Part shown: in pieces, positions 15,223 to 18,317 of the stretch
Numbering within the stretch: the first letter of the stretch is position 1
Layout: the number at the start of each line of letters is the position of its first letter
Source of the DNA: Bacteroidia bacterium
GTDB taxonomy: Bacteria; Bacteroidota; Bacteroidia; Flavobacteriales_D; Crocinitomicaceae
Direction of reading: 5' to 3'
Assembly (NCBI GenBank): GCA_030427935.1
Contig: JAUICI010000012.1
Span: 1-44,637, forward strand
DNA: 44,637 bases
Made by a program: the position numbers and the translations under genes
Notes under the pieces: model-generated
Databases searched by the model: none
The model's input: only the letters and a program-made list of their open reading frames with translations
What the model was told of the DNA's origin: nothing

Positions 15223-15696
15223 TTATATTGGAAATAGTTCATTTAACATCTCATTGATTAAATGACTCTCATATCCTTTATTCATGAGATAAGCATAGAC
15301 TTTTTTTCTTTTTTCCCATTTATTACCAGAAACTTCACGGTGTTTTCTTTCTATCAAACCTTTTAAGATTTCCAGATACTCATCTTGATCCAGTGCTTCA
15401 AATCCTTTCTTGATGGAATAAGAACTTACTTTCTTTTGTTTAAGATGCAATTCGATCTTTTTACGACCCCATTTTTTAATCCTCACCTTCCCTGAAACAA
15501 AGGCTTCAGCAAATCTTTGTTCATTTAAAAAATTGTTCTGAATAAGATCCGCAATTAAAATATCTCTTTGCTCTCGATCAAAACCCCAATCAAATAATTT
15601 TGAATCTACCTCGGAATGACATCTTTCCTGATAAGCACAGAAATACTCAATCTTGGCTTTTGCTTCCAAAAAAGAGTATTTCTGCTGTTTTTTCAC
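15223..15696 (-). CDS. recX: Regulatory protein RecX
   Basis: 157 residues with the RecX layout of three-helix repeats: YCAYQERCHSEVDSKL, LNEQRFAEAFVSGKVRIKKWGRKKIELHLKQK (the most conserved stretch, here split for length) and the C-terminal repeat with YLMNKGYESHLI. RecX binds RecA filaments and limits their activity. The start is a GTG at 15694-15696, six bases after the RNase E/G stop, so it is co-transcribed with that gene rather than with recA, which is not in the window. Confidence 0.88.
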   Translation of the reverse strand: MKKQQKYSFLEAKAKIEYFCAYQERCHSEVDSKLFDWGFDREQRDILIADLIQNNFLNEQRFAEAFVSGKVRIKKWGRKKIELHLKQKKVSSYSIKKGFEALDQDEYLEILKGLIERKHREVSGNKWEKRKKVYAYLMNKGYESHLINEMLNELFPI

Positions 15697-15702
15697 TAAA
15701 TA

Positions 15703-17253
15703 TTATAATGTAATTTCTTCGTTGTTCTTATTAACGAATTTGTATTGTAATAAATGAAAAGAAGAGTTAGGTCGTATCGAAACCCATTTCTTCATGGAAC
15801 GATACCATTTCCATCTTTGAGAAAATAATCCCTTTGTGAAATAGGCTTCTAAATAAGGGTGAACGATTAAAGAAACATGTTGCTCTTTTCGATCATTGAT
15901 AAGGTATTTCAAATTATTCTCAATTTGTTCGGCCAACAATATGGATGCCTGAACTTCTCCAGTACCATTACAAGTCGGACAAGATTCGGCAGTTCTAATC
16001 TCCGTTTCTGGGCGAACTCTTTGACGTGTAATCTCTACAATACCAAATTTTGATGGAGGGAGAATATTGTGTTTTGCACGATCTCCCTTCATGAATTCTT
16101 TGAATTTCTCGTGAAGGATTTTGTTATTCTCCCTCTTATGCATATCAATGAAGTCAACCGTAACAATTCCTCCCATATCTCTTAATCGGAGAATTCTTGC
16201 GATTTCTTCAGCGGCTTCAATATTCACTGTAATTGCATTATCCTCTTGGTTGTCTTCGGCTCCTTTTCTGTACCCGGAGTTAACGTCAATCACGTGCATA
16301 GCTTCTGTATGCTCAATGATAAGATAACCACCTCCGGATAAAGGTACTTTTTTACCAAATAAGGACTTGATTTGCTTATTGATACCAAAACGCTCAAAAA
16401 TATTCACCTTACCACTGTAATGCTTCAGAATCTTTTCTTTTCCCGGAGCAATAGAGGCAATGTATTTATGGAGTTCATCTTTAAGAACGGTGTCATTCAC
16501 ATGAATATTCGTAAACGACTCATTCAACATGTCTCTCAATAGAGATGAGGATCTATTCAATTCACCAAGAACTCGTTTTGGAGGTTTTGCAAACTTTAAT
16601 TTGTTATGCATTTTCTCCCATTTCTTGATCAAATCTTTTAGATCCGAATCAATTTCTGAAACCTTTTTATTTTCTGCTACAGTTCGGATGATCACACCAA
16701 AATTCCTTGGCAAAATCCCCTTCACGATATCTCTCAAACGATCTCTCTCTTCGTGATTTTTGATCTTTTGAGAAATAGATACTTTATTTGAAAAAGGAAC
16801 TAATACAAGGAATCTCCCAGCAATAGTTACCTCTGAACTCAATCTCGGTCCTTTAGACGAGATAGGTTCCTTTGCTACCTGAACCAAAATCGGCTGCGAC
16901 GCGGATAATACATCCTCGATCTTTCCATTCTTATCGATATCGGGTTGTAATTTGAAATAACCCAAACTTGGCGACTTCTGTTTTTTCGCCAATGTTCTTT
17001 TCGTGAAATCGTTAAGTGAACTAAATTGAGGACCTAAATCCAAATAATGTAGAAAGGCGTCTTTCTCATATCCCACATCTACAAAAGCCGCATTTAGGCT
17101 CGGTACAATTTTTCTGACTCTTCCAAGATATAAATCTCCTACAGCGTAATCGATTTGCCCATTTTCTTCGTGCAATTCAACCAACTTACCCTCTTTCAAA
17201 AGGGCTATCGTAACACCTGTAGGCTTGGAATCTACAACTAATTCTACACTCAC
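15703..17253 (-). CDS. rng: Ribonuclease E/G family protein
   Basis: 516 residues from a GTG at 17251-17253 (MSVELVVDS); the frame runs upstream to 17286, but the extra residues are not family-like. Cytoplasmic endoribonuclease for mRNA turnover and rRNA maturation. Visible: an N-terminal S1-type domain (GDLYLGRVRKIVPSLNAAFVDVG), the catalytic metal Asp residues in HVIDVNSG and VDFIDMHKRE, and the Zn-link CPTCNGTG near residue 430. The length and lack of a long C-terminal scaffold fit RNase G rather than full RNase E. A 94-base leader with a hairpin separates it from the small ribosomal-type ORF upstream; recX follows. Confidence 0.92.
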   Translation of the reverse strand: MSVELVVDSKPTGVTIALLKEGKLVELHEENGQIDYAVGDLYLGRVRKIVPSLNAAFVDVGYEKDAFLHYLDLGPQFSSLNDFTKRTLAKKQKSPSLGYFKLQPDIDKNGKIEDVLSASQPILVQVAKEPISSKGPRLSSEVTIAGRFLVLVPFSNKVSISQKIKNHEERDRLRDIVKGILPRNFGVIIRTVAENKKVSEIDSDLKDLIKKWEKMHNKLKFAKPPKRVLGELNRSSSLLRDMLNESFTNIHVNDTVLKDELHKYIASIAPGKEKILKHYSGKVNIFERFGINKQIKSLFGKKVPLSGGGYLIIEHTEAMHVIDVNSGYRKGAEDNQEDNAITVNIEAAEEIARILRLRDMGGIVTVDFIDMHKRENNKILHEKFKEFMKGDRAKHNILPPSKFGIVEITRQRVRPETEIRTAESCPTCNGTGEVQASILLAEQIENNLKYLINDRKEQHVSLIVHPYLEAYFTKGLFSQRWKWYRSMKKWVSIRPNSSFHLLQYKFVNKNNEEITL

Positions 17254-17278
17254 TAACCTAAGATTTGAAACGACAATA

Positions 17279-17313
17279 AAAAACAATAGCTTGGCAATTC
17301 AAATCACCAAGCT
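17279..17313 (-). terminator. Possible weak terminator or attenuator hairpin before the RNase E/G gene
   Basis: AGCTTGG at 17288-17294 pairs with CCAAGCT at 17307-17313 across a 12-base loop. Read on the minus strand the hairpin is followed by a T-rich stretch (ATTGTTTTTTATTG). It lies after the bS22-like ORF and 35 bases before the RNase E/G GTG, so it could reduce read-through, protect the upstream 3' end, or be a cleavage site for the downstream enzyme. The stem is only seven pairs, hence modest confidence. Confidence 0.4.
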
Positions 17314-17347: not shown

Positions 17348-17440
17348 TTATTTCTTCTTCTTGTGTCTGTTTTTTCTTAGCCTTTTCTTTCTCTTGTGAG
17401 TAGCCATCTTGTGTCTCTTTCTCTTTTTACCACTTGGCAT
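17348..17440 (-). CDS. Small basic protein, bS22/AURKAIP1-COX24 (mS38) family
   Basis: A 30-residue ORF (ATG at 17438-17440, TAA at 17348-17350), too short for standard length cut-offs. It starts MPSGKKRKRHKMATHKRKKR and is almost only Lys, Arg and His; there are no acidic residues. From memory this closely matches the short Bacteroidota proteins annotated as AURKAIP1/COX24-domain proteins, related to bacterial bS22 and mitochondrial mS38, which sit on the small ribosomal subunit. It begins two bases after the stop of the TPR gene and precedes RNase E/G, so it is part of the HU operon. Ribosome binding is inferred from family resemblance. Confidence 0.8.
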   Translation of the reverse strand: MPSGKKRKRHKMATHKRKKRLRKNRHKKKK

Positions 17441-17442
17441 AA

Positions 17443-17952
17443 CTAATCTTTTTTTATGTTAATAAATTTATCTTTAATGTATTCGTTTCTTTCTTTAATC
17501 ATTGCAACAGTTGCACTATCACTTTTAAATTCCACGATCATTTTATCGTGAACTAACAATGCTCTATTAAACTGTCCAGTATTTACGAAGCATTCTTCTA
17601 ACTCCACGTAAATACTAAATCGTTCTTTCGAATTCGTTTCAATACTTAAAAGATCTTCATACCTGCCGATCGCTTTTTCATACTGCTGGGATTGTCTGGA
17701 AAAATTTGCCAAAGTTCTTATCGCAAACTTATTATCCGGATCATCCTTCAATACATCTTTCAGCATTTTAATCCCTATCATCGGTGCACCGCCACCCTGA
17801 ACATAAGAAATTCCTAATTGAACTCTTGCATCCATCTCAGTAAGCACAGGCTTTTCCGAGTATTTCTTGGAGCTCACCAAAAATAGGAGGGCAAAAATAA
17901 GAAAAGCCCCTGAAACAACCAAATATTGAGGTTTAATCTTAGGGGCTTTCAT
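17443..17952 (-). CDS. Membrane-anchored TPR protein
   Basis: 169 residues from the ATG at 17950-17952; a GTG at 17968-17970 would add six residues and cannot be excluded, since AAGGAG precedes it. One N-terminal transmembrane helix (YLVVSGAFLIFALLFLVS) is followed by about three TPR-like helical pairs (AIRTLANFSRQSQQYEKAIGRYEDLL, then VELEECFVNTGQFNRALLVHDKMI). N-terminus inside and TPR part in the periplasm is the likely topology. It sits between HU and the bS22-like gene with almost no spacing. This arrangement recurs in Flavobacteriales as far as I recall; function unknown. Confidence 0.75.
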   Translation of the reverse strand: MKAPKIKPQYLVVSGAFLIFALLFLVSSKKYSEKPVLTEMDARVQLGISYVQGGGAPMIGIKMLKDVLKDDPDNKFAIRTLANFSRQSQQYEKAIGRYEDLLSIETNSKERFSIYVELEECFVNTGQFNRALLVHDKMIVEFKSDSATVAMIKERNEYIKDKFINIKKD

Positions 17953-17973
17953 GTCTTTAGAAGTTTTCACTCC

Positions 17974-18264
17974 TTATTTTACAGTAACGTTATCCTTTAC
18001 TGACTCAACAAAAGTTTTTGCTGGTTTAAACGCAGGAATGTTGTGTGCAGGGATAATGATAGTTGTATTCTTAGAAATATTTCTACCTGTTTTTTCTGCT
18101 CTTTCTTTCACTACAAAAGATCCAAACCCTCTCAAATATACATTCTCTCCTTTTGTCAATGAATTTTTTACTGAATCCATAAATGCTTCTACAGTTGTTT
18201 GTACTGCTACTTTTTCTAATCCAGTTTCATCTGCGATTTCTGCAACGATATCTGCTTTCGTCAT
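17974..18264 (-). CDS. HU family DNA-binding protein
   Basis: 96 residues, the normal HU/IHF length. MTKADIVAEIADETGL begins the helical dimer domain; GENVYLRGFGSFVVKERAEKTGRN is the conserved beta turn leading into the DNA-binding arm (NISKNTTIIIPAHNIPAFKPAK). It bends and compacts DNA as a dimer. It is the first gene of the minus-strand operon continuing to recX, with a consensus -7 box 46 bases upstream. HU-beta and IHF subunits cannot be separated with confidence by eye; the P-A-x-x-x-P-x-F-K-P-x-K ending is shared. Confidence 0.95.
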   Translation of the reverse strand: MTKADIVAEIADETGLEKVAVQTTVEAFMDSVKNSLTKGENVYLRGFGSFVVKERAEKTGRNISKNTTIIIPAHNIPAFKPAKTFVESVKDNVTVK

Positions 18265-18309: not shown

Positions 18310-18317
18310 CAAATGTA
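18310..18317 (-). promoter_or_regulatory. Candidate -7 box of the HU operon promoter
   Basis: The minus strand reads TACATTTG, matching TAnnTTTG exactly and followed by C. The HU ATG is 46 bases downstream, leaving a leader of about 35-40 bases. The upstream TTTTCG is a poor -33 match at somewhat long spacing. The same octamer stands before gcvH. Confidence 0.45.

Follow-up and report, generated by a model that had tools for sequence, protein, structure and literature searches.

The window analysed here (the whole 44,637-nucleotide stretch of a contig from a Bacteroidia bacterium of the family Crocinitomicaceae) carries five genes in a row on its minus strand, the third of which is a 30-codon gene for the small ribosomal protein bS22 (17348..17440, ATG to TAA), identified by Protein Data Bank (PDB) matches, conservation and codon comparison. 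The first gene of the unit encodes an HU family DNA-binding protein of 96 amino acids (17974..18264; PF00216, E 3.1e-29), and between it and bS22 lies a 175-residue open reading frame for a TPR-like protein (17443..17970; matched by TPR models, all below their cut-offs). Beyond bS22 follow rng, of the RNase E/G family (15703..17253), and recX (15223..15696). The open reading frame of rng spans 15703-17286; its likely GTG start at 17253 was judged by eye, GTG standing at the equal place in relatives. The gaps along the strand are 3 bases (HU to TPR), 2 bases (TPR to bS22), 94 bases (bS22 to rng) and 6 bases (rng to recX). On the plus strand beyond HU lie a divergent gene and a second one, which we take from their translations to be single-strand-binding-like and GldE-like, respectively. 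No tRNA was found in the window.

The minus-strand translation of 17348-17440 is MPSGKKRKRHKMATHKRKKRLRKNRHKKKK, in which 18 of the 30 residues are Lys or Arg, three are His and none is Asp or Glu. A preliminary description of this locus, which gave no strand for the frame, had proposed a real 30-residue gene free of acidic residues and two bases past the TPR gene, and these points are borne out (17443 is the last base of TPR and 17440 the first of the ATG); its term 'all-basic' was right about the acidic residues but loose otherwise, basic residues making up only 21 of the 30. The frame is matched at E <= 0.01 in all 59 of the nearest genomes (its own included), with one copy in its own genome. 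In a codon comparison of 57 of these 59 genomes (leaving out L103, in which the first codon coincides with a contig end, and L111, which has a run of N), pS was 0.82, a saturated value, and pN 0.045, for a ratio of 0.055; third positions vary in 28/28 codons, first positions in 9/28 and second positions in 3/28. Synonymous and non-synonymous change, whose equality had been named beforehand as grounds for giving up the gene, are thus far from equal, and the gene is conserved and under purifying selection. Its size and charge (30 residues, 18 of them Lys/Arg) are those of a bS22, for which we took about 28-35 residues, more than half of them Lys/Arg, as the mark.

A search of PDB sequences at E <= 10 returned three matches, every one a ribosome chain: 9i5v_10 (E 1.2e-10, residues 1-30 aligned; named AURKAIP1/COX24 domain-containing protein), 7jil_5 (E 3.8e-10, residues 1-30 without gaps; named S22 or L38) and 8fmw_V (E 1.1e-5, 28 residues aligned; named bS22). 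A profile built from 15 members of the phylum (A1) found the same three chains, with 7jil_5 at 7.4e-15 and 8fmw_V at 1.2e-11. The 7JIL structure is the ribosome of Flavobacterium johnsoniae (PMC9976891), and because the match to its chain runs gap-free over all 30 residues, the whole length of a bS22 modelled in a ribosome map, we regard the family as settled. The resemblance to the bS22/mS38 (AURKAIP1/COX24) family suggested in the preliminary description was therefore right, even though the PF08213 search proposed along with it fails formally: the COX24_C model scores 12.1 bits (E 0.19; residues 3-30 on profile positions 3-30) against a curated cut-off of 23 bits, and a search of NCBIfam with the translation gave no family at E <= 10. 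The same Pfam model matches 5 of the 15 phylum members at E <= 1 (best 0.018), and no PHROGs family matched at E <= 1. As judged by direct comparison with ribosome chains, and not by the Pfam model, the predicted protein is bS22. That the frame is a chance open stretch in A/G-rich DNA beside a gene end might be suspected from its shortness, its few residue types, its score below the Pfam cut-off and the empty NCBIfam search; set against the pN/pS ratio, the frame's presence in 59/59 near genomes and its gap-free match with proteins modelled in ribosome maps, this idea keeps a vanishingly small probability.

The gene neighborhood is conserved to differing degrees on the two sides of bS22. In 56 of the 59 near genomes the same strand carries HU upstream of bS22, which supports the earlier proposal that bS22 shares an operon with this nucleoid protein; of the three others, two have 0 and 44 upstream bases and the third (L106) has 1500 bases without HU. 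Downstream, rng follows bS22 in all 59, and 11 of the 20 relatives that were read to 4 kb showed recX past rng. Named loci were taken as the best 80 of at least 273: HU precedes bS22 in 76 of the 77 that extend at least 1500 bases upstream, and of the 77 long enough downstream, 74 have rng past bS22. At the 77th of the loci judged for HU (L148:2294-2503) the HU frame runs into bS22, its match ending 3 bases inside, which is either an overlap or a sequence error. Of 57 farther loci (27 among the best matches of the phylum search and 30 from genomes chosen for weak matches), 45 have HU no more than 1500 bases upstream and 15 have rng downstream; in ten of the twelve without HU, a reading of 8-9 kb with the window's HU as query found no HU at E <= 1e-3. 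Of the 59 near genomes, 17 yielded the TPR gene; within the window's family it was detected only in the window and a genome of the same genus. The window retains the three-gene form HU-TPR-bS22. Wherever else it was detected, the TPR-like protein is 22-39% identical to that of the window. The TPR gene changes much faster than its neighbors, identity within the genus being 67% for TPR, 97% for HU and 100% for bS22.

The 94-base gap between bS22 and rng holds a terminator-like hairpin with a U-rich tail (17278..17313, minus strand), with an 11-bp stem and a 4-base loop at 17288-17313; from 17313 to 17278 the region reads AGCTTGGTGATTTGAATTGCCAAGCT and then ATTGTTTTTT. The gap folds better than most of its shuffled versions (z -2.63; 4 of 200 shuffles are equally good), and over the whole window region the number of terminator-like sites is 1 against 1.5 expected by chance. 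Across relatives, a hairpin with a U-rich tail lies within 150 bases past the bS22 stop in 83 of 114 loci, compared with 19.6 in shuffles and 21 on the opposite strand, counts in which near relatives are not independent (114 of 116 loci were readable, the exceptions being L085 and L111). Among the near genomes the figure is 41 of 58. The remaining 31 of the 114 loci have no hairpin by the rule of the survey, which is imperfect in that some matches fall within a tRNA or the following gene and some hairpins that are plain to see but poor in G-C pairs escape it. As a control, the last 150 bases before bS22 contain hairpins in 36 of 112 loci, as against 6.9 expected in shuffles.

The bS22 hairpin is seen as sequence, and we infer that it terminates transcription in the cell. 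The HU-TPR-bS22 transcript would most likely begin before HU and stop at this hairpin, and we conclude from the surveyed sequences that bS22 would usually be the last gene of its transcript; its link with RNase E/G and RecX would therefore be weak, though the position of rng is kept in 59/59 near genomes, and rng is probably a separate transcript. The preliminary description had instead placed all five genes in one operon. Its HU and TPR part stands; RNase E/G and RecX are doubtful members, given the hairpin in between and the frequency of such hairpins past bS22 in relatives (83/114 loci). A single operon of HU, TPR, bS22, rng and recX, coupling the make-up of the ribosome with RNA decay, would fit the common strand of all five genes and the constancy of rng past bS22 (59/59 near genomes and, among the best 80 of at least 273, 74/77 named loci), recX lies past rng in 11/20, and the hairpin could be leaky. 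We nevertheless consider it distinctly improbable, because a hairpin with a U-rich tail lies inside the gap before rng, hairpins recur at that place far beyond the shuffled and opposite-strand counts, and 42 of the 57 farther loci showed no rng past bS22, though 45 of the 57 had HU upstream. The best explanation of the locus as a whole, which we hold with near certainty, is thus a bS22 gene encoding a structural protein of the 30S subunit, most likely the last in an HU-TPR-bS22 transcript.

A candidate promoter for this transcript is the box TACATTTG (18310..18317, minus strand), 45 bases before the HU start, which is of the TAnnTTTG type described as the -7 motif of the phylum's main sigma factor (PMC7366714). 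Because the HU and TPR genes themselves contain four more such boxes on the minus strand, the box alone is weak promoter evidence; a promoter presumably lies before HU. The 250 bases before bS22 in the window contain no TAnnTTTG, and a scan for sigma-70 promoters gave 4 sites where 11.3 were expected. Relatives that lack the TPR gene have a TATCTTTG box ahead of bS22: among TPR-less genomes of the window's family, a TAnnTTTG box lies 60-120 bases before bS22 in 32 of the 33 that are readable, and in TPR-keeping near genomes in only 2 of 17. The box lies in the HU-bS22 spacer, at this distance, in L002, L003, L004, L007, L009, L011 and other loci of the same family. The same box and gap are found in named loci among the best 80 of at least 273 (L155, L166, L177, L186 and L200, including Fluviicola, Crocinitomix and two Crocinitomicaceae); a further Crocinitomicaceae locus (L164) has a 54-base gap and no box, and a Flavobacteriaceae locus (L159) has the box.

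For 20 of these 33 genomes, picked because the box runs directly into a hairpin with a U tract, the spacers were aligned. In this alignment 95.6% of stem cells pair, in a stem model that was taken from one of the aligned sequences and so favors the stem; 14 cells are changed on both sides, compared with 4.3 in shuffles, and slid versions of the stem score far lower. Two further measures gave no excess over shuffles (310/500 for pairs changed on both sides and 64/500 for pair types). Of the other 13 genomes, two look similar and were left out (L015 and L111), seven have, by eye, a hairpin farther down, and four (L091, L096, L098 and L110) have no clear spacer hairpin by eye. Where the hairpin is shifted (L027, L030, L102, L105, L108, L109 and L112), the box is kept and the hairpin, ACTTCCTG...CAGGAAGT with a T run, stands about 30 bases farther down, where it would be inside the bS22 leader. 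A known RNA family was considered for the spacer hairpins and rejected, there being no Rfam match above cut-off: the window gave no match at all, and 20 relative loci searched at E <= 5 gave five weak matches, all below the family cut-offs. The simplest reading of the spacers is that loss of the TPR gene was accompanied by a putative HU terminator and a candidate private promoter for bS22; the element may possibly act as an attenuator.

Over the phylum as a whole, bS22 was found in 376 of 395 sampled genomes. When the 19 misses were searched again with a profile at E <= 1, a single fragment was recovered (G442, residues 1-14), leaving 18 without the gene. Among the 19 misses are all seven genomes sampled from one family (f47) and four of the eight from one genus (g127), each with a completeness of 98-99%; the remaining eight come from fragmented assemblies (230-520 contigs, 80-94% complete), in which the gene may fall into a gap. 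The family f47 includes Salinibacter ruber: in one of its genomes (G203) the second contig opens with 12 kb that match a plasmid of S. ruber DSM 13855 at 100% identity. In none of the seven sampled genomes of the family (G203 and six others; loci L238 and L246) was bS22 detected. A zinc-ribbon gene follows HU in G203, and no strongly basic small frame was found there in 3.3 kb around HU or in 5 kb past it; in a genome of another family (G129), bS22 lies directly past a gene that by eye is similar to this zinc-ribbon gene. For two other genomes of f47 (G365 and G444), the HU query had no match at E <= 1e-5. Within g127, HU, bS22, a hairpin and a convergent gene were found in one genome (G137), while three others (G283, G330 and G404) lack bS22 but carry HU and that convergent gene. 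Between the locus with bS22 (L236) and those without it (L234, L235 and L237), the site between HU and the convergent gene is otherwise kept. From sequence, this looks like a clean loss of bS22; a form of bS22 too diverged for the profile is a possible alternative in the lineages that appear to lack it.

Salinibacter is an extreme halophile, and salt as the reason for the loss is a guess on our part. A joint reading of these results, which we offer tentatively and judge unlikely as a whole, is that the pairing of the HU and bS22 genes is ancient in the phylum and couples two abundant basic proteins to growth, that bS22 is dispensable under high salt, and that the pair has been split in most of the window's family, where bS22 received a TAnnTTTG promoter of its own inside the HU terminator. 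On this account the bS22 gene would have gone from the Salinibacter family and from part of a second genus, where the rest of the site is kept, since a polycation holding rRNA helices through its charge would be useless in a high-salt cell. In a crude check on very small samples (the 7 or 8 longest open reading frames, unvetted, from a single 12-kb stretch per genome), the values for Asp+Glu/Lys+Arg were 0.141/0.118 for Salinibacter, 0.101/0.090 for G404 and 0.120/0.092 for the window, with no acidic excess over the window, and the odds of the joint reading are lowered accordingly.

It is confirmed that the bS22 gene of the window is known and ordinary in kind, its protein being already known in the phylum. 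Because it is already a known ribosomal protein of the phylum, the practical use of the result is in annotation, for a gene present in 376/395 sampled genomes and caught here neither by the Pfam cut-off nor by NCBIfam. What the comparison adds is that bS22 usually travels with HU, and that a few lineages, including S. ruber, appear to live without bS22 and so offer a natural test of its function. Among the papers listed in searches largely outside the subscription literature, we recognized none on the HU-bS22 gene pair or on bS22 in Salinibacter.

The role of bS22 on the ribosome can be drawn from relatives. In Borrelia, bS22 is described as occupying a pocket built from 16S helices h2, h27, h44 and h45, where its counterparts in mycobacteria and Bacteroidetes also lie, and as touching 23S H68 (PMC10618245); a bridge to H67 and a contact at the neck are described as well (PMC10085706). 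By analogy with these solved structures, we infer that the Lys/Arg-rich 30-residue peptide of the present organism binds this 16S pocket near the neck, where it would form a bent helix, and that in the 70S ribosome it would touch 23S H67/H68 as an extra inter-subunit contact. The peptide might also be antimicrobial outside the ribosome, as reported for externally added bS22 of Cutibacterium acnes, which inhibited growth in disk tests and cell-free translation (PMC10085706), and the peptide here is equally basic. We think this very unlikely, since the tests described in PMC10085706 relied on added peptide and rRNA binding already accounts for the conservation.

Among the closest known systems is the bS22 of F. 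johnsoniae (PDB 7JIL chain 5; identical in sequence in 9OZ9, 9OZN, 9OZZ and 9P0E), which aligns over 30 residues without gaps, differs by M12V, L21A and K23A, and belongs to the same pocket family (PMC10618245). The AURKAIP1/COX24 domain-containing protein of PDB 9I5V and 9I5X is likewise alike over 30 residues, differing by S3N and R22K. In Borreliella burgdorferi, a member of another phylum, bS22 (PDB 8FMW chain V) aligns over residues 1-28, with 8 substitutions there; Borrelia bS22 is described as most like that of F. johnsoniae and as analogous to mitochondrial mS38 and eukaryotic eL41 (PMC10618245). The bS22 of mycobacteria and C. acnes, mitochondrial mS38 (AURKAIP1, COX24) and eukaryotic eL41 are distant in sequence, none being among the PDB matches at E <= 10, and C. 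acnes and F. johnsoniae bS22 are given as 37% alike (PMC10085706), but all of them are described as lying in the same rRNA pocket (PMC10618245, PMC10085706).
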